Assembly (NCBI RefSeq): GCF_014696615.1
Contig: NZ_JACJQJ010000047.1
Location: 1 to 64,000, forward strand
Direction of reading: 5' to 3'
Source: Nostoc linckia FACHB-104
Lineage (GTDB): Bacteria; Cyanobacteriota; Cyanobacteriia; Cyanobacteriales; Nostocaceae
Length of the DNA stretch: 64,000 bases
In this document: piece by piece, positions 21,061 through 64,000 of the stretch
Layout: every line of letters starts with the position of its first letter
Position numbering within the stretch: position 1 is the first letter of the stretch
The notes under the pieces: model-generated
Told to the model about the DNA's origin: nothing
The model's database searches: none
The model's input: the letters and a program-made list of their open reading frames with translations, nothing else
Position numbers and translations under genes: made by a program

Positions 21061-21258
21061 TCAATTAGCAGCCATTAGCTGCAAACACTCGTCGTGCTTA
21101 CAAATATCAGTCAACGCGTTTAAAGGGTGCATGTCTGGTGGGATGACAAAGAATGTATCAAAGTTTACCCACTCTGATTTTTTGAGCATGATTGTGTTTG
21201 GTAAAAGGACGGTTGATTCAACGCGTGCATCGTAATGTTTAAGACACTTAAGGCTCAA
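21061..21258 (-). CDS. Possible small protein downstream of the primase
   Basis: 65 codons from a TTG start 12 bases after the primase stop on the same strand. Sequence includes LKHYDARVESTVLLPNTIML and FFVIPPDMHPLNALTDIC. No family recognised and no strong ribosome-binding site. The immediate downstream position is the main support. The surrounding 20792-21060 is otherwise gene-free. Confidence 0.3.
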   Translation of the reverse strand: MSLKCLKHYDARVESTVLLPNTIMLKKSEWVNFDTFFVIPPDMHPLNALTDICKHDECLQLMAAN

Positions 21259-21270
21259 ACATCTAAAGTA

Positions 21271-24045
21271 TTATTCTCTTAGTTGTAGCCAATGCTCCCA
21301 CGCCACAGTATATAAGCGTTCTCTCCACTGACTACGTTTCTTGTAGCTGCACTTCACCACGGCATGTACAAAATAACCTGATTCTCGCTTAATTTCCTGA
21401 ATAATGCCGTTTCTCCACCCCTGAAATTCATCATGCTGAAACCGCACCCGTGCGCCACAGGTGAGATAAGAGGAAGTAGGCGTAGGTGACACCTCAGTTG
21501 GTAAAAGGTCGTCACTCGCCACAACGCCTACGCCATCAGGGGTTGAAAGATTGTCGTGACAGCTATGACGACTTTCTCCTATTGTTTGTTCAGAATCTGG
21601 TGTAAACGAGCTGCCTTCACTTGATAACACCGTGGGCGCTTCACTTACCTCTTGCACTTTTTCTAAATTATTTTTTTCTTGAAAAAGGTCGTCAACTCCG
21701 TCACTTTCTTTGACTGGCAAGGGTTGTAGGTCGTCACACGAGTCGTCACGGCGGTTGTCACCGCATGACAGTAACTCGTCATAGTAGTATGGCTCCCCTT
21801 CTCGGCGGAGGCGAATGCCACAAAAGCCGCGCCGTGTATTGGTACGAACCCGCGTCACTCCTTTTTTGCCTAAGGTGTTGCGGCAGATATCTTCTACCTT
21901 GGGGGAAAAGTTCGTTAACCCGATCCCAGAAAGCCCCGCGTTACGGCAGTAGTGGTGATAAGAGCCAAACAGCGTGCTTATCGCCGGATTATACGACGTA
22001 CCCCCCGCCCACTCATCTTTATTATTGCCACCTTGGGTAAAGGCACCGTCCTCAAAGATGACACACTCCTCAATCCACGCCGCCACAGAATCCTGGCGAA
22101 TAGAGAGATCTAAAAATGCCGCGGTGACCTCACCGCTACTGGGGCGATCGTCACGAAGCACTTTCGTCAGGTGATCGTTGGGAATGCTTAAGAGGTAGCG
22201 GGTAAAGGCGGCAATTTCAGGGGCAAAAAGCACATCCAAGTTTTTCTCCTGGGTTGGCTGATGTGTACAGGTCACTACTAACGCGCGACGCTTCATCCAG
22301 CTTCCTGCCCCTAAAAGGACGGGGGCATTGGCGGTAATAAGCGCTAATCCCTTAAAGACAAAGTTAAACGTATCTTTGTAGAGCTGCTTGGCAGTTAACT
22401 CATCTTGTCCGGTTAAGTTTTTAAAGAACTGCACCCCACTCGTGACTTTCTCCTGGTCAGCAAAAATGGCTAATTTTTTATGCATTAGCCGAAAACAGTC
22501 GTTTTTATCCGATAATTGCTCAATGGTGCCTGACCAGGTATTTCGCTCGCCTAAGACCTGCTGTAACAAACGGGTGTAGGTGCCTTTGCCACTGCCGCCT
22601 GAGCCGACCATGTACAAAAATTTCTGTAAATCGTAGCGCCCCCGTAGCACGGCGGCTGCAAAGCAAAGGAGCAATTCTTGATCAGCTGCCTGGGGCCACC
22701 CCTCTTCTAACCACGCCCGAATCTGCCCCCAATCAGCAACAAGTGGCGTATGGTACTTTCTGGGTAAACACCAAGTGAGCCGATTCTCTGGGGAGTGTGG
22801 TTCAAAGTGTCCTGTTGCAATGACGACTACGCCATCTTGAAACGGCAAAATCCCTTCGCGTTCATCCCAAGAAAAGGTGACAAGCTCACGGCTTAAGAAT
22901 TTCCTAATGTTGACAATATAGGCATCGCTCCCGTAACCGCAAATGCCGCGTGCGTGAAGGATGTGCTGAATCTGGGTGTCAATGTAGTGGTCATTTACGG
23001 CACTCCATACCCCGTCTTGGTGTAGCTCATACCACATCCAGGTTTTATGCGCGTCATTCCATAGAAGTGTTCCCGTATAGTCTTCAGCCAGCGCACGGGC
23101 AAACATATCCGGTTTAGGAATGCGGGGGGCTCGCTCGCCGGACTGACTCGTAAATTGTTGCTCAAGGCGTTGCAACGCCTGCTGGTACATGGTGTCAAAA
23201 AGTGCACTACCACCGCCTACGATAACATCATCAATGCCTTTTCCTTGCTCGGCTGTCCATAAAATATCGTCAACCTGGCAGTGTAGGTCGCGTAACGCAC
23301 TGGTTAACCGCCGCTTTCCTAATGCAACTGCCTTAATCGCACTTGGTTTCTCATCGCGGTCAAAGGCAAACAGCCACTGACTTTTCTCATAGGTAAAGCC
23401 GTGAAGATCCGGTTTAAGGTACGGGGCAACACGCGCACCGTGGCGATAGCTACTCACCCCACAGGTGCAGCCGTAGACGGAAAGCGCAAGATACCCAAGA
23501 GAGAGCGCCGCTAAACTTTTCTTTGCTCCTTCCGTGAGCAGCCGAGGAATCGGGGCAGAGCGTGCCCACTCCCAAAAGCTTCCCTCACGTGGCACCTCAA
23601 CCCCATAGCGCTCACTAATTTTTTGTCGAATCTCGAAAGGAATAGGAGGTAAAAACAGGCGATCGCCGTTATCTTTTGGCGCACTATAGCGATACGGGCG
23701 CTCTTTTTCTTCATCCCAGATGCTCACGATTGCCTGCCACAGCGAGCCATCTTCATTGCGAAAAAACGCCGCATAAAGCGGTGCTCCGTCTAAGGAATGC
23801 CGAAAACGGCGCAGTTCCCAGCCTAGTTCTTCGTGAATGGGCGTAACAGCATCATGCCCCGCGGTGACCTCTAATGCTTCATGAAATTCTACACACGCCT
23901 CAAACAAGACAGGGTCAATCCCGCTTTTTTCACAGCACAGCTCGCGAATAAATGCCTTAAAGTCGTCAAAGCTAGAAAAACTTGTCGCTGGTGGTGCAGT
24001 GGAATCCACAGACGACGCAATAGACAAAGTAGCATGGGCGGACAT
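21271..24045 (-). CDS. Plasmid primase-helicase, DUF3854/D5-like
   Basis: 924 aa from ATG 24045, chosen because AAGGAGTCTCTC precedes it; the frame can open eight codons earlier. The N-terminal half contains a DUF3854/TOPRIM-like region (GVSSYRHGARVAPYLKPD; KSQWLFAFDRDEKPSAIKAV; LWTAEQGKGIDDVIVGGG). The centre is an SF3/D5 helicase: Walker A GSGGSGKGT, LAIFADQEKV, and the sensor region LALITANAPV then MKRRALVVTCTH. The C-terminal 60 residues are an SH3-like tail (GARVRFQHDEFQGWRNG). It primes and unwinds plasmid DNA, particularly after transfer. A fragment of its 3' end is duplicated at 18161. Confidence 0.88.
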   Translation of the reverse strand: MSAHATLSIASSVDSTAPPATSFSSFDDFKAFIRELCCEKSGIDPVLFEACVEFHEALEVTAGHDAVTPIHEELGWELRRFRHSLDGAPLYAAFFRNEDGSLWQAIVSIWDEEKERPYRYSAPKDNGDRLFLPPIPFEIRQKISERYGVEVPREGSFWEWARSAPIPRLLTEGAKKSLAALSLGYLALSVYGCTCGVSSYRHGARVAPYLKPDLHGFTYEKSQWLFAFDRDEKPSAIKAVALGKRRLTSALRDLHCQVDDILWTAEQGKGIDDVIVGGGSALFDTMYQQALQRLEQQFTSQSGERAPRIPKPDMFARALAEDYTGTLLWNDAHKTWMWYELHQDGVWSAVNDHYIDTQIQHILHARGICGYGSDAYIVNIRKFLSRELVTFSWDEREGILPFQDGVVVIATGHFEPHSPENRLTWCLPRKYHTPLVADWGQIRAWLEEGWPQAADQELLLCFAAAVLRGRYDLQKFLYMVGSGGSGKGTYTRLLQQVLGERNTWSGTIEQLSDKNDCFRLMHKKLAIFADQEKVTSGVQFFKNLTGQDELTAKQLYKDTFNFVFKGLALITANAPVLLGAGSWMKRRALVVTCTHQPTQEKNLDVLFAPEIAAFTRYLLSIPNDHLTKVLRDDRPSSGEVTAAFLDLSIRQDSVAAWIEECVIFEDGAFTQGGNNKDEWAGGTSYNPAISTLFGSYHHYCRNAGLSGIGLTNFSPKVEDICRNTLGKKGVTRVRTNTRRGFCGIRLRREGEPYYYDELLSCGDNRRDDSCDDLQPLPVKESDGVDDLFQEKNNLEKVQEVSEAPTVLSSEGSSFTPDSEQTIGESRHSCHDNLSTPDGVGVVASDDLLPTEVSPTPTSSYLTCGARVRFQHDEFQGWRNGIIQEIKRESGYFVHAVVKCSYKKRSQWRERLYTVAWEHWLQLRE

Positions 24046-57494: not shown

Positions 57495-58259
57495 ATGCTT
57501 ACATTCACTTGTACCTCTCTTTCTGGTGGGCAAGGCAAAACAACCGTCTCAATATTTCTGGGAAGAATGCTTGCTCAACAAGGTAATACTGTGCTGATGA
57601 TCGATGCTGATCCACAAGCCAATCTCACCTTTTACTTAGGACATGAAGTACAGGAGAACCAGCCTACACTTCTTGAAGTCATCAAGAAACAGGTCGCCAC
57701 TGAGCATGGCATGTATGAGGTGGGAGAAAACTTGTGGCTTATTCCTGCCGATGATGGCCTCGATAAAGCACAGGATTATTTATCCAGTAGTGGCATGGGG
57801 GCAGTGGTACTCAAGAAAAGATTAAAAGAAGTAAGTAGCTCATTTAATTACTGTGTCATTGATGCACCACCTCAACGTTCTCAACTTTCACTGACCAGTG
57901 CAGGGGCAGCAGATCACATTATTATCCCTGCTGAAGCTTCTTCAAAAGGAGTAAATTCTCTACTTCGCACCCTCGACTTAATTGCCGAGCTTCAAGAAAT
58001 AGATGCGTTTTCTGGAAAAGTTATTGGTGTGTTGCCATTTAGAGATAAATGGGTGGGAAACAACCAAGCAGCACAAAGTAGAGCAAGCATTGAAGCAATG
58101 CGCGAGATTGCGGGGACTACTCCTGTCTTACCCTCTATTCTTGAATCTGAACAATTTAAAAAAGCGATCGATAAAGGCGTAACGTTGGCAGCGTTGGGGT
58201 TTCCTCAACTTGAAAGTCCTTTTCAACGTATCATGGAGGAATTAAAAGTATATGTCTGA
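57495..58259 (+). CDS. parA: ParA partition ATPase
   Basis: 254 aa. Deviant Walker A SLSGGQGKTTVSIFLG (residues 8-23), LMIDADPQANLTFYLG and Walker B CVIDAPPQRSQL are diagnostic of ParA/MinD ATPases; the Gln in GGQGKTT replaces the usual Val/Ile. The N-terminus lacks an HTH, as in ParA of the short (Ib/Soj) type. It drives plasmid segregation by ATP-dependent DNA binding controlled by the centromere-binding partner. Its stop overlaps the ATG of that partner by eight bases, so the two are coupled. Confidence 0.93.
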   Translation: MLTFTCTSLSGGQGKTTVSIFLGRMLAQQGNTVLMIDADPQANLTFYLGHEVQENQPTLLEVIKKQVATEHGMYEVGENLWLIPADDGLDKAQDYLSSSGMGAVVLKKRLKEVSSSFNYCVIDAPPQRSQLSLTSAGAADHIIIPAEASSKGVNSLLRTLDLIAELQEIDAFSGKVIGVLPFRDKWVGNNQAAQSRASIEAMREIAGTTPVLPSILESEQFKKAIDKGVTLAALGFPQLESPFQRIMEELKVYV

Positions 58260-59393: not shown

Positions 59394-59999
59394 ATAACAA
59401 AGGCTCCTTAAGGAGCCTTCGCCAAAAATCAAATTTTTGGTATTCAGAACGTCCTTACCGGAATTTCCTCGACCTTTTACAAGGTGACGGGATGTCATGT
59501 GTACACATGTCTGCTGCATCCAAGATTAATTATAAGGTTTGATGCTAGGTAAATCAAGGCTTTTCGTTATTAAAATTTTCGTCTCGTCGCTTCTCATTTG
59601 TTACCCAACCAATGTTAGCTTGCTTAGTCATTTCACCGTCCGTAACAATAAACTGAACAGCGAAATCAAGTAAAAATTACTTCTGATTAATGAAGAGCCA
59701 TAAGTTATTAAACATCAAACTTTTTTAGCAACAACTTACTTTTTAAGTTGTAAAAGAATGACACCCATTGATATAAAAGCCTTGACGTAGAAGAAAAAGG
59801 TGACTGAAGCCGAAAGAGAAGGTGGCTGAGGTCTTTAGGTAGATACCTTTTGCTGAAACGTCGGATTGCGGGGCCGCCCGCTCGTATTGTCTTATCCTTG
59901 AGCGGGTAGCCCCGCTCAGGTTCTTTTCATCTTGTTCAAAAATATTAAATAAAATCAAGCTGTTACATTTCACTCCTCCCGACAGAATAAGACGCTATG
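59394..59999. other. Non-coding leader to the large RNA
   Basis: About 600 bases without a gene. Contains the 20-base palindrome at 59400-59419, a 14-base palindrome CATGTGTACACATG at about 59494-59508, and a strong two-step hairpin: GCGGGGC (59868-59874) with GCCCCGC (59909-59915) and, inside it, CCCGCTC (59877-59883) with GAGCGGG (59900-59906). The last may be the first helix of the RNA that follows. Confidence 0.5.
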
Positions 60000-60000
60000 T

Positions 60001-61228
60001 GCTGGTGCGTTGCTAACGCTTCTGCATGAGAGTGTACTCGCGTGATTACGCAACACCTGGGCCATGTGGACTTACCAACCCACGGTAAAACAGGGACGGG
60101 GTAGCTGCCGTCATGTCGCGCAATCCCCCTCTTAGCGTGAGGTGCTCGGAAAGCGAGCTTGCCTTATGCGAGAGAGGCTGAATGGACTAATCCTGTGACG
60201 TGCTGCACAGAGTAATCCCATTCTTCTATCTCATACAGTGTTCTGTGTAGACATCATTCAACAACTGAAATTTTGAAGACGGGCGACCGAGACACGCCTA
60301 AGTCCCCAACACTTAGGCCGTGATAAGGGAAGTGGTGTAAATCCACAAGAGGGGGCATAGCCTACGGGGTAAAACCTATGGTGTGTTACCTCTTCCAGTG
60401 CTGGGAGTTCGTCATTGGTAACAATGGCGATCGGAGGATGACAACTCCGACCATAAGTTGAAAAACTTAGGGCGAATAGCTGAACAGTGAAAGGCGAGAA
60501 ATCGCTTACTGGTTATGCGGTGTATGGTGCGAGGTCAAACCGCGAAACATCTCAAGGTGAGTAAGGGAAAGCTTCTGCCTTCTAGTCCCCCAAATCGCTG
60601 ACCGCGAAAGGTACTTGAGTACCTAGCCTTGACGACCTGAGCCTCTAGGCTCTAGCAACACCTAACCATCGTTGAACTCTTATCACTAATCGGGGAATCT
60701 CCTGCACGCCGAACCTTGCGAGTTCGGAAGCTTGGCAGGTCACCAAGTCACAACGTGACAGGAGAGGGAGCGGGGAGCAAGTAGGAATCACACAAGGTGA
60801 GAGAACAATGGGCTGACAGTCTAGCGTTCTTGTCCAGTGGGCTGGTAATCCACAACATTAAGGACACACGAAAGCTCTGAGGAGGGGTAATCTAATGCGA
60901 GTACACCCCATCAATGCAGGGGCGGAGTAAGCGGTATACCTTACACGGGTGTAGCGTTTACTCTCCTACTAGCCTAATACGAGCGGACTATGACAAAAAA
61001 TACAATGCAATATGAGATAACACAGACAAACATCAACACTCAACGACAAATGATAAGTCATTGAAAAGAAGAGAATTGTGACGGCTATATGGAAGGTGGG
61101 TCTTCGCCTAATAAGTAGCATTTAGTACTAACAGGAGGAGTCTACCTTCTGCCGTGCGTTGTTATCGATGGTTTTCTTATCAAGGCTTTGTGAGTTGTGC
61201 CTTTCACCTACAACTCACCTTTTTTTTT
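60001..61228 (+). ncRNA. Large structured RNA candidate, about 1.2 kb
   Basis: No frame of even 60 codons exists on either strand from 60001 to about 61150, and the DNA is visibly GC-richer than both flanks. Many local helices are perfect: GCCTAAGT/ACTTAGGC (60296-60318), CATTG-GTAA-CAATG (about 60413-60426), TAAGTT-GAAA-AACTTA (60453-60468), GCGA-GAAA-TCGC (60494-60505), GGTAC/GTACC (60610-60623), GAGCC/GGCTC (60639-60652), CGAAC/GTTCG (60710-60727), GTCAC/GTGAC (60747-60759). Several loops are GNRA (GAAA, GTAA), as in large ornate RNAs and ribozymes. The 3' end is placed at the terminator 61190-61228; the 5' end is uncertain and could lie near 59868. No known family identified. Confidence 0.6.
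61190..61228 (+). terminator. Rho-independent terminator between the RNA and the 201-aa gene
   Basis: GTGAGTTGT (61190-61198) pairs with ACAACTCAC (61210-61218), nine perfect base pairs with an 11-base loop, followed by CTTTTTTTTT (to 61228). The downstream gene's ribosome-binding site (AGGAG at 61231) starts three bases later. It is placed to end the upstream RNA and to gate read-through into the gene. Confidence 0.85.
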
Positions 61229-61243
61229 CTAGGAGCAGGGGTG

Positions 61244-61849
61244 ATGATCTATGAAGCGCACACATTAGGAGAATTTTTGCGTAAGGTCGCTATCGACTAC
61301 CTACGGTACGGCTATTATCGGTATTTACTAAGGGTAATTCCTGAAAAGATGGAGATACATTCTATTGATCGAAAGGTAATCGCCGACTATGAAATTACCG
61401 TATGTCGGATGACGCGGTTGAGGAGGAAAAAAGCAGGACGTGCCAATGTCGCCTACGTTCGATGGGGTCGTCGCTTTGTGTTGCTTGCGACTGAAGGGAT
61501 ACATGAGGAATTTGAGAAACGAAGATTTCTAGATATTCGAGAGAACCCTTTATATGTGAGTGGCTACTCGATTGGAATACACGCAGGAAAGCCATGCGTC
61601 ATGATTGAACCTACTCGATATCAACTCATTCGCTCGCACCTTCATGCGATCGCACTTTTTAATGAAGCACGGGTCACTGATTACCTACGCGATATCTCTC
61701 CCTTTAGTTTTCCAGGCATTGTGAGGCAGAAACGACGATTATTGCGTGAAGTGAATAGGAAGAGAAAACGGGCAGGGTTATCTACCATTAAGATTGAAGT
61801 TCGCTTTACGAAAAAAGATGCTGGTGCTCCTAAGATAGCTGCTCATTAA
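61244..61849 (+). CDS. Unknown protein encoded behind the structured RNA, 201 aa
   Basis: Start chosen at ATG 61244: AGGAG lies eight bases upstream and a terminator excludes the in-frame GTG at 61154. The protein is basic: MIYEAHTLGEFLRKVAIDYL; YLLRVIPEKMEIHSIDRKV; YEITVCRMTRLRRKKAGR; VAYVRWGRRFVLLATEG; YVSGYSIGIHAGKPCVMIEP; RQKRRLLREVNRKRKRAG. Arg/Lys clusters suggest nucleic-acid binding; no reverse transcriptase, HNH, RuvC or transposase motif is visible. Position directly behind a large structured RNA suggests a ribonucleoprotein partner, an inference. It converges with and overlaps the next gene's end by four bases. Confidence 0.7.
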   Translation: MIYEAHTLGEFLRKVAIDYLRYGYYRYLLRVIPEKMEIHSIDRKVIADYEITVCRMTRLRRKKAGRANVAYVRWGRRFVLLATEGIHEEFEKRRFLDIRENPLYVSGYSIGIHAGKPCVMIEPTRYQLIRSHLHAIALFNEARVTDYLRDISPFSFPGIVRQKRRLLREVNRKRKRAGLSTIKIEVRFTKKDAGAPKIAAH

Positions 61850-62489: not shown

Positions 62490-63542
62490 TTATGGCCGCC
62501 ATTTAATTCCCACCTTTTTACAATATGCTGTAAGGTCTTCTTTTGTTACCTCTTGCACTGGTTTGGGAACAATTCGTATAGGTGGTGACCCTTCATCTTC
62601 GCAATTACTTTCCTGTGGTAAAGAAGATTTGGCTTGTGGCTTCATTAGAGAATTAGTTGACCGCTTTAAAACTATAAAGTTTTTTCCCCGAGAAACAGAA
62701 TAAAATCGTTGTGATTCTGGTAAAGGTTCTAAAAAACCTTTTTCTTCTAACTCAGCAATAGCTGGACGTAGTTTTTCTTTTAACTTACTTCCAAAGTAAT
62801 CACCACATAATCCTAGATGGTCTCTTGCAAATCCCGACAATTCCAATTCTAAAGAATCTCTTTTATAAAAACGCTTGTCCAAAAAACGATACATCCTTTT
62901 TGAAGTAGGAAGGTTAAGCTTTCTATAAAAATCGAAATCTAATCGTTTAATATTGCCTGCTTGAAAGCTTTTGAAAATAATATCGTTCCACTTAATTTGG
63001 CAAAGTCCTGCATAAGGATCGTGAGGAAATTTTGTGCGAAATATTTTTCTGGTCTCCGAGGCACAAATGAGTGCGTGCTCTATGATATGAAAAGTTGCGT
63101 CTGTCCATGATTGCGAAGATTTATCCCACCACGCCTTATCATAGTTAAGAGTAATTCCTGTCCAGCGTTTCAGGGATTCTCCTAATCGCTTATAGTTAAC
63201 ATCATTAATTGTCCAATTAAGTAATTTCAGAAATTCATAGCGAGTAAAATAAAGCGTTGAATCTTCAAAATTGTTTTTAGCTGAAAGCTGAATTGCTGCA
63301 AGTATCACCTCCTCATCAGAACTTGTGGGTAGCCCGTAGGCATCTGAAGCAGTAATAGTTAATGTACGCGGGACTAGTGTTTTGGCACTTTCATCATAAA
63401 CCTTATCAAGAAATACAAGAGTCTTTTGTCCTGGCTTTCTCTTTCCAAGAACTGCAATTGGAAACTCTGCTAAATTCATTTCATCCCGCCCATAAATTAT
63501 TTCTTGTATCGCATCCTCTTTTTCATCTTTGTTCTTAATCAC
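62490..63542 (-). CDS. repA: RepA replication initiator (RPA family)
   Basis: 350 aa, GTG start at 63542; ATG 63479 is an alternative. It matches plasmid RPA-type replication initiators over most of its length: AEFPIAVLGKRKPGQKTLVF, AYGLPTSSDEEVILAAIQLS, FTRYEFLKLLNWTINDVNYK, RLGESLKRWTGITLNYDKAW, IIFKSFQAGNIKRLDFDFYR, SKRMYRFLDKRFYKRDSLEL and RPAIAELEEKGFLEPLP. Tandem winged-helix domains bind iterons and open the origin. Six 20-bp iterons lie about 140 bases upstream of the start, giving a standard iteron-controlled replicon. The C-terminal 60 residues are a poorly conserved tail. Confidence 0.93.
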   Translation of the reverse strand: MIKNKDEKEDAIQEIIYGRDEMNLAEFPIAVLGKRKPGQKTLVFLDKVYDESAKTLVPRTLTITASDAYGLPTSSDEEVILAAIQLSAKNNFEDSTLYFTRYEFLKLLNWTINDVNYKRLGESLKRWTGITLNYDKAWWDKSSQSWTDATFHIIEHALICASETRKIFRTKFPHDPYAGLCQIKWNDIIFKSFQAGNIKRLDFDFYRKLNLPTSKRMYRFLDKRFYKRDSLELELSGFARDHLGLCGDYFGSKLKEKLRPAIAELEEKGFLEPLPESQRFYSVSRGKNFIVLKRSTNSLMKPQAKSSLPQESNCEDEGSPPIRIVPKPVQEVTKEDLTAYCKKVGIKWRP

Positions 63543-63683
63543 AATATTTTATTCCTAAAATTTTAAAATAAAAGCGAAGCGTTCTCTTATTTTTATAGTT
63601 TTATATAGTTTAGTAGTGGGCGATAAAAAAATCTAATAATATCGATAACTTACAGCGAATTTTTTACCTCAATTCACGAAGTT

Positions 63684-63813
63684 CTATCCCTCTTAGTGCA
63701 GTAGTACTATCCCTCTTAGTGCAGTAATACTATCCCTCTTAGTGCAGTAACTATCCCTCAGAGTGCAGTATTCTATCCCTCTTAGTGCAGTAACTATCCC
63801 TCAGAGTGCAATA
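63684..63813. repeat. Replication origin: six iterons
   Basis: CTATCCCTCTTAGTGCAGTA starts at 63684, 63707, 63730, 63751, 63773 and 63794, spaced 23, 23, 21, 22 and 21 bp, about two helical turns. Copies 4 and 6 have TCAGAGTGCA in place of TCTTAGTGCA, and the last ends in ATA. The array lies upstream of repA, where RepA-family proteins bind to start replication and limit copy number. Sequence beyond 63814 is AT-rich, suitable for strand opening. Confidence 0.93.
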
Positions 63814-64000
63814 GTTTTTCCTCTAAAGCAACTCTATAAAATAAAGAAAGTTAACTCATAAGTTATGGGGAATTTTAGATAGGCTATTAAGCTCGTATAA
63901 AGTCAAGGAGATTCTGGTTATTATGTAGCCCAAGGGTAAGAGTGTTCAAAAAAATAACAGGCTTAATCTTAATGTAGAGGGTTTAAATTAAGGCGTGATA
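63814..64000. other. AT-rich end of window
   Basis: No gene. Directly adjoins the iterons and could be the DNA-unwinding element. No DnaA-box match was found by eye. Confidence 0.4.

Follow-up and report, generated by a model that had tools for sequence, protein, structure and literature searches.

A circularly permuted group II ribozyme followed by an acpG-like gene on a probable cyanobacterial plasmid

The window, a stretch of 64,000 nucleotides of Nostoc linckia FACHB-104 DNA, carries a circularly permuted (CP) group II ribozyme and, behind it on the same strand, the partner gene acpG; we are highly confident in this joint identification of the RNA and the protein. CP group II ribozymes were described by Roth et al. 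2021 (PMC8637638) and are named for the placement of domains 5 and 6 (D5-D6) upstream of domain 1 (D1); for members from five species that paper reports back-splicing chemistry in vitro. They are one of the few large natural ribozyme classes, and their role is not known. The locus and its relatives extend the class to cyanobacteria and planctomycetes; together they show splice-site pairing kept by covariation and define a branch in which acpG follows the RNA. The reverse transcriptase (RT)-like fold predicted for AcpG is the first structural lead that we found for this protein.

The locus and its neighbourhood

The window lies on a 65.8-kb contig of a 9.4-Mb genome. The features discussed here are as follows, with the basis of each assignment in brackets.

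57495-58259, ParA-type gene
59982-60131, plus strand, stretch preceding domain 5, corresponding to the place of P1 and P2 in the RNAs of Roth et al., PMC8637638 (position only)
60132-60169, plus strand, domain 5, with a helix at 60135-60169 of 8 bp, U, 5 bp, loop GAAAG, 5 bp, UUG and 8 bp (geometry search, covariance model, compensatory pairs)
60170-60234, plus strand, domain 6, ending CUAUCUCAU, with the 3' splice site after 60234 (boundary patterns, covariance model)
60228, plus strand, presumed branch-point A of domain 6 (position and analogy with Roth et al., PMC8637638)
60235-60280, plus strand, linker of 46 nt, the predicted RNA circle (boundary rule that gives 32 nt on pPNAP05)
60275-60278, plus strand, IBS1 core GAAG (EBS1 pairing, covariation in 8 of 9 RNAs)
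60281-60884, plus strand, domain 1 onward, opening GGGCGACC, the borders of D1, D2 and D3 not being split (alignment A9, consensus fold)
60579-60582, plus strand, EBS1 core CUUC, within the loop of a domain 1 hairpin (covariation; position checked)
60885-61189, plus strand, less conserved 3' part of the RNA, assigned to D4 and an extension; a long hairpin was seen by eye at about 61079-61155 (position only)
61190-61228, plus strand, terminator-like hairpin and T-run between the RNA and the acpG-like gene (letters checked)
61244-61849, plus strand, acpG-like gene, 201 aa, predicted RT-like fold
62490-63542, minus strand, plasmid replication initiator (RPA, PF10134), a neighbour outside the RNA-acpG unit

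The initial annotation had described some 1.2 kb without coding capacity, rich in hairpins and closed by a terminator 15 bases before a 201-aa reading frame, and this description holds. There is no ORF of at least 60 aa (ATG, GTG or TTG starts) in 59974-61153, and many hairpins occur in the stretch, for example at 60296-60318 and 60925-60963. The hairpin at 61190-61218 has a perfect 9-bp stem and an 11-nt loop and is followed by one C and nine T, the acpG-like frame starting 15 bases past the end of the T-run. This hairpin goes unlisted in our simple terminator scan, in which loops were limited to 8 nt; the scan gave five terminator-like sites elsewhere (2.7 in shuffles) and one promoter-like site (3.7 in shuffles).

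The contig carrying the RNA and the acpG-like gene is probably a plasmid, because a ParA-type gene and an RPA-family replication initiator lie nearby. Beside the initiator, at 63680-63830, iteron-like tandem copies resembling CTATCCCTCTTAGTGCAGTA were seen by eye. Upstream of the RNA, on the minus strand at 59400-59547, there is an sroH-like element (RF00372, 62.2 bits, E 1.7e-13, gathering score 80) with 75-82% identity to seven Vibrio/Escherichia plasmid records, at sites without a listed gene; such similarity is unusual in a cyanobacterium. An Rfam search of 59400-61300 by E-value returned nothing beyond this element and a chance psbJ match, and tRNA searches found no tRNA.

Domains, splice boundaries and fold of the permuted RNA

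The RNA of the window runs from D5-D6 through the 46-nt linker to D1 onward, and so departs from the canonical group II order, in which D1 to D6 succeed one another with D5-D6 at the 3' end. Its boundaries recur among the relatives. The end of D6 reads CUA...AU in 12 of 13 sequences, counting published pTT8, the exception being locus L012 with GU; D1, whose start was located by the pattern GGCGA, opens with GGGCGA likewise in 12 of 13 (pTT8 again counted), with TGGCGA in L012. Linker lengths across the 13 sequences are 12-46 nt. According to Roth et al. (PMC8637638), CP group II linkers are typically <100 nt and four published circles measure 32-86 nt, that of the Polaromonas naphthalenivorans ribozyme being 32 nt; our boundary rule, applied to pPNAP05 of this species, gives the same 32 nt. 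The linkers of L008 and L009, at 15 and 12 nt, fall below these four published sizes, and if processed they would yield very small RNA circles.

For D5-D6 we built a covariance model, R1, from 10 relatives with the window excluded; 23 of its 32 pairs show a change on both sides. R1 has one match in the window, at 60132-60234 (83.2 bits, E 9.8e-15 with 12 sources searched). Two further matches are the published pPNAP05 ribozyme, at 36.2 bits, and L017, at 33.7 bits; L011 scores 78.6 bits, but nearly duplicates one of the training sequences. The published pTT8 RNA escapes R1, whose sole match there is a chance one of 10.7 bits on the other strand, and five other Thermus acpG loci give no match.

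An Rfam search for a known intron or domain V, the check proposed in the initial annotation, gave no family at gathering score anywhere in the window; Rfam matches at that place come from the relatives. Among the 12 loci scanned, RF00029 is found about 0.8-1.4 kb before the gene in seven (three of the first five loci and four of the next seven), above gathering in L010, L009, L023 and L024 and below it in L003, L019 and L021. In pTT8 and most of pPNAP05, Rfam detected no group II element. When the loci were searched by geometry, 10 of 13 had a hairpin of D5 shape at a suitable distance, its loop of the GAAA or GAGA type; in five of these ten, one looser geometry match elsewhere was ignored. 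As for the remaining three loci, L021 has an insertion and its D5 was taken from the sub-gathering Rfam match, L026 was covered on the wrong strand by this search and its D5 was read separately, and the contig of L022 begins too late.

Within the family, R1 exceeds 80 bits in four of 208 genomes. Another 35 family genomes have matches of 37.7-52.5 bits, which are probably ordinary group II introns; in the two such loci inspected (L077 and L078), GGCGACC is absent from the stretch inspected. Plasmid5 of Calothrix NIES-4101 (G027:C5) holds two CP RNA copies about 2 kb apart, at 21124-21228 and 23275-23370, with acpG directly after the second only.

The D5 of the window is unusual. It opens with AGC at 60134-60136, the A unpaired, and AGC stands there in six of 10 relatives (alignment A7). 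The CP class as described by Roth et al. (PMC8637638) likewise starts D5 with AGC and an unpaired A, five base pairs from the bulge, whereas seven pairs separate the two in the window. Five pairs below the bulge the window has CGU (60136-60138), where nine of 10 relatives have CGC and L010 has AGC; either trinucleotide may serve as the triad in this branch. The loop is the five-nt GAAAG rather than a tetraloop, and that of L012 also has five bases. Several pairs of the lower stem are changed in the window with pairing intact throughout. Because of the CGU and the five-nt loop, the activity of this copy is in doubt: going by its letters, it may be weak or dead, or the D5 change may be tolerated.

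For D1 onward we aligned the window with eight relatives (alignment A9, nine cyanobacterial RNAs, with L017, L010, L024 and pTT8 left out). The consensus fold reaches -113.9 kcal/mol; 40 shuffled alignments that preserve the gap pattern and rough conservation average -14.0 (sd 3.3), so that z is about -30. Both sides have changed in 86 of its 124 pairs, and no shuffled alignment has more than 17 such pairs.

The splice-site pairing is likewise kept. IBS1, the linker bases at -6 to -3 relative to the start of D1, and EBS1, in one loop of D1, are fully Watson-Crick over 4 nt in eight of the nine RNAs, the window included, in four different sequences: GAAG/CUUC in the window and GAAU/AUUC, GAAA/UUUC and GAGA/UCUC elsewhere. 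This count is a best-of-many, taken at fixed four-base positions over all columns and offsets, and it includes L019 and L021, two copies in a single genome whose linkers end alike; 40 linker permutations searched identically reached at most 7. Beside the core, the window has one A.C mismatch. A first search of a different design (5-7 nt, column bins) gave a best count of 4, with permutations up to 5. We take EBS1-IBS1 to be maintained by selection, and see in this an argument for continued back-splicing in the family.

Relatives of AcpG and their association with the RNA

A single-sequence search with the window protein alone found no relatives, nor did a scan of viral contigs that used the alignment. 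Relatives of the protein occur in six of 217 family genomes, four of them strong, and in two of 386 genomes drawn from the phylum (the window's own genome counted in both), as well as in six plasmid records and seven genome-contig loci, some of which overlap others. Their sources are cyanobacteria, planctomycetes (the K2D plasmid and an Isosphaera MAG), Planococcus, which was reached by a planctomycete query, and a MAG labelled Rhodobacteraceae.

In all 12 loci where the position is covered, spread over three phyla, D5-D6 lies upstream of acpG on the same strand; this count leaves out L022 (no D5 in the contig) and L006 and L007 (short), and takes the L. boryana duplicates once. The four genomes with RNA matches >80 bits are the same four that have strong protein relatives (208 versus 217 genomes, overlapping samples), an agreement that is partly by construction since three of the four RNAs trained R1. 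That RNA and protein belong together, as first proposed, is thus borne out. Two of the 217 family genomes, G059 and G062, have short AcpG-like proteins (L006 and L007) without a strong RNA match, which speaks against a strict coupling. These are frames of 159 and 158 residues, like the N-terminal part of AcpG and without the C-terminal helices.

The family also connects to the AcpG that Roth et al. (PMC8637638) found near CP RNAs and, in their text, related to no protein. It aligns with Thermus AcpG in hhalign at probability 92.7 and E 4.2e-7 over 167 columns, a pair compared without decoys; pairwise BLASTP of the two single sequences leaves the window protein and Thermus AcpG unlinked. A 269-aa protein encoded divergently from the pPNAP05 RNA, together with its proteobacterial relatives, aligns with both acpG groups. 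At the proteobacterial acpG loci R1 finds an RNA in six of 10, always on the opposite strand, and nothing in the other four; five of these six RNAs are upstream of the gene within the sequence read, and that of L070 occupies another part of a 4.2-kb circle. Plasmids on which an AcpG-like gene is accompanied by a CP RNA match on the opposite strand include those of L072 (E. coli pFHI_NMBU_11_03), L070 (Halomonas) and L068 (Burkholderia glumae).

A comparison of the window with genome G018 shows an uneven AcpG: 71 of the last 73 residues (window 61628-61849; L012 2954-3175) are identical, against 70% overall, the N-terminal part having diverged as if by recombination. The order of the 158/166-aa gene and the replication gene is also shared by G018, which has one more ORF there, on its 8.5-Mb contig.

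Pfam, NCBIfam, PHROG and PADLOC gave no convincing name for the window protein family. We regard as chance the PADLOC matches to Cas11a (one of 12 members, 1.8e-4) and AbiEii (one of 12, 0.0018), the PHROG families (each in one of 12 members, best 0.0082), the matches to ribosomal protein L22 among PDB sequences (0.073 at best) and NCBIfam PRK01617 (E 0.044, far under the cut-off). We found no solved structure among the AcpG relatives, and no later work on AcpG among the best matches of searches in open-licence PMC texts.

Predicted fold, proposed role and comparison with known systems

AlphaFold models of the window AcpG (pLDDT 90.1, pTM 0.81) and a planctomycete AcpG (pLDDT 83.4, pTM 0.74), both built from the same eight sequences, were compared by Foldseek with the PDB (350,542 chains). 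Ranks 1-11 for the window protein are all group II intron/retron complexes, the best being 8fli_B (E 9.5e-4) and 8t2r_D (TM 0.49); ranks 1-8 for the planctomycete protein are again all such complexes, with 8t2s_D best (E 1.7e-3). The top matches of both models range from E 9.5e-4 to 6.9e-2, with TM <=0.49 and large rmsd, and one match only across both PDB searches reaches E 0.001. The Foldseek viral library gave nothing at 0.001, many of its named matches being viral RNA polymerases or polyproteins.

The motif-C hairpin of RTs carries YxDD, a motif also seen in the intron proteins compared here. A [YFHWM]xDD motif is absent from all 28 AcpG sequences; the early judgement that the protein is not an RT stands for catalysis, yet the predicted fold leans, with modest scores, towards the RTs of group II introns and retrons. 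The hairpin NVAYVRWGRRFVLLATEG of AcpG is a candidate for the place of the YxDD hairpin. A first hhalign run set it on the YxDD hairpin in a weak alignment (P 0.025) that continues to the thumb. The intron-encoded proteins came from 31 loci (L032-L062), with 26 frames >300 aa, of which the 24 with a YxDD-type motif were used. In eight later comparisons between AcpG and intron-encoded proteins, 1 to 20 of 60 decoys scored equally high, three of the eight alignments lying on the same diagonal as the first run. Because these eight comparisons are no better than decoys, we claim no sequence homology between AcpG and RTs; the suggested RT descent of AcpG rests on predicted structure.

By analogy with published CP ribozymes, the branch A of D6 (60228) would attack the 60280/60281 junction, and the freed linker end would then attack 60234/60235, giving a 46-nt RNA circle and a T-shaped branched RNA; the latter could reopen RNAs or DNAs that have an IBS1-like site. 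One would expect so large an RNA to need a maturase, and AcpG is proposed in that role: on the models above it would bind the RNA as a dedicated maturase, replacing the intron-encoded protein normally inside domain 4. We put at about an even chance that AcpG serves the permuted ribozyme as an RT-like but catalytically dead maturase. A fuller reading, which we hold tentatively and a little short of even, is that in AcpG we have the intron-encoded protein that the permuted ribozymes lack, an RT reduced to a dead palm/thumb maturase and moved from domain 4 to a gene of its own; the pair would then be a non-mobile, plasmid-kept ribonucleoprotein for back-splicing itself or cutting matching nucleic acids, not for retrotransposition.

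It is quite possible, if somewhat improbable, that AcpG is instead an unrelated RNA- or DNA-binding protein with a generic palm-like or alpha/beta fold, controlling for example plasmid replication or its own transcript. The low TM scores and large rmsd, the single PDB match at E 0.001, viral-library matches of which none reaches 0.001 and many of the named ones are to palm folds in general, and sequence profiles that give no link to intron-encoded proteins would all suit such a protein, as would the replication initiator close by and the terminator-like hairpin before the gene. However, all the top matches of the two models (11 of 11 and 8 of 8) belong to group II/retron complexes, as expected of the partner of a group II ribozyme, and the one weak profile alignment that sets the hairpin on YxDD and runs to the thumb shares its diagonal with three of the eight later ones.

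One might also object to the identity of the RNA, taking it for an ordinary group II intron, broken or misassembled, with its pieces in the wrong order by chance. Its domains are indeed group II intron domains, RF00029 matches its relatives and the window D5 departs from theirs, but the permuted order, the boundaries and the downstream gene recur in 12 loci of three phyla, pairs change on both sides with EBS1-IBS1 maintained, and published members in this order are active in vitro (PMC8637638); we consider the objection very improbable. The initial annotation had placed the RNA outside known families, and a ribonucleoprotein class unrelated to known ribozymes is scarcely credible, even though the window has no Rfam match at gathering and the protein no convincing library assignment: for the RNA the idea is refuted by D5-D6, recognisable at its 5' end, by the splice boundaries and by the AcpG partner, which fit the published CP group II class.

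Among known systems, group II intron-encoded RT/maturases resemble AcpG in that they are, with retron complexes, the top structural matches of its two models. AcpG differs from them in lacking YxDD, in having a third to half their length, in being a separate gene outside the RNA and in giving no significant profile match. Thermus AcpG (TTHC007, T. thermophilus pTT8) is alike in its collinear 167-column profile match and in adjoining a CP RNA, and a joint alignment read by eye gives it GY, RxRR-like, LLAT-like and F.G..Q blocks in common with the window family. The window AcpG, at 201 aa against about 260, is 18% identical to it in the profile alignment and is without the Thermus C-terminal extension.

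The closest likeness of the RNA and gene together is with the CP group II ribozymes of pPNAP05 and pTT8 as described by Roth et al. (PMC8637638). The identification section of that paper names Deinococcus-Thermus, Firmicutes and Proteobacteria, and its main text leaves cyanobacteria and planctomycetes unmentioned. The window shares with the published RNAs the order D5-D6-D1, the GGGCGA boundary, the AU at the end of D6, the short linker, the location on a (here probable) plasmid, a nearby AcpG and the lack of an internal 60-aa ORF. Its D5-D6 is longer (103 nt, where pTT8 has 84 and pPNAP05 77), and its D5 differs from theirs in the CGU five pairs below the bulge and in the five-nt loop. The acpG of the window lies on the same strand as the RNA, after a terminator-like hairpin, whereas gene and RNA lie on opposite strands in pTT8, in pPNAP05 and at the six proteobacterial loci with an R1 match; same-strand cases were also known to Roth et al. 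(PMC8637638).
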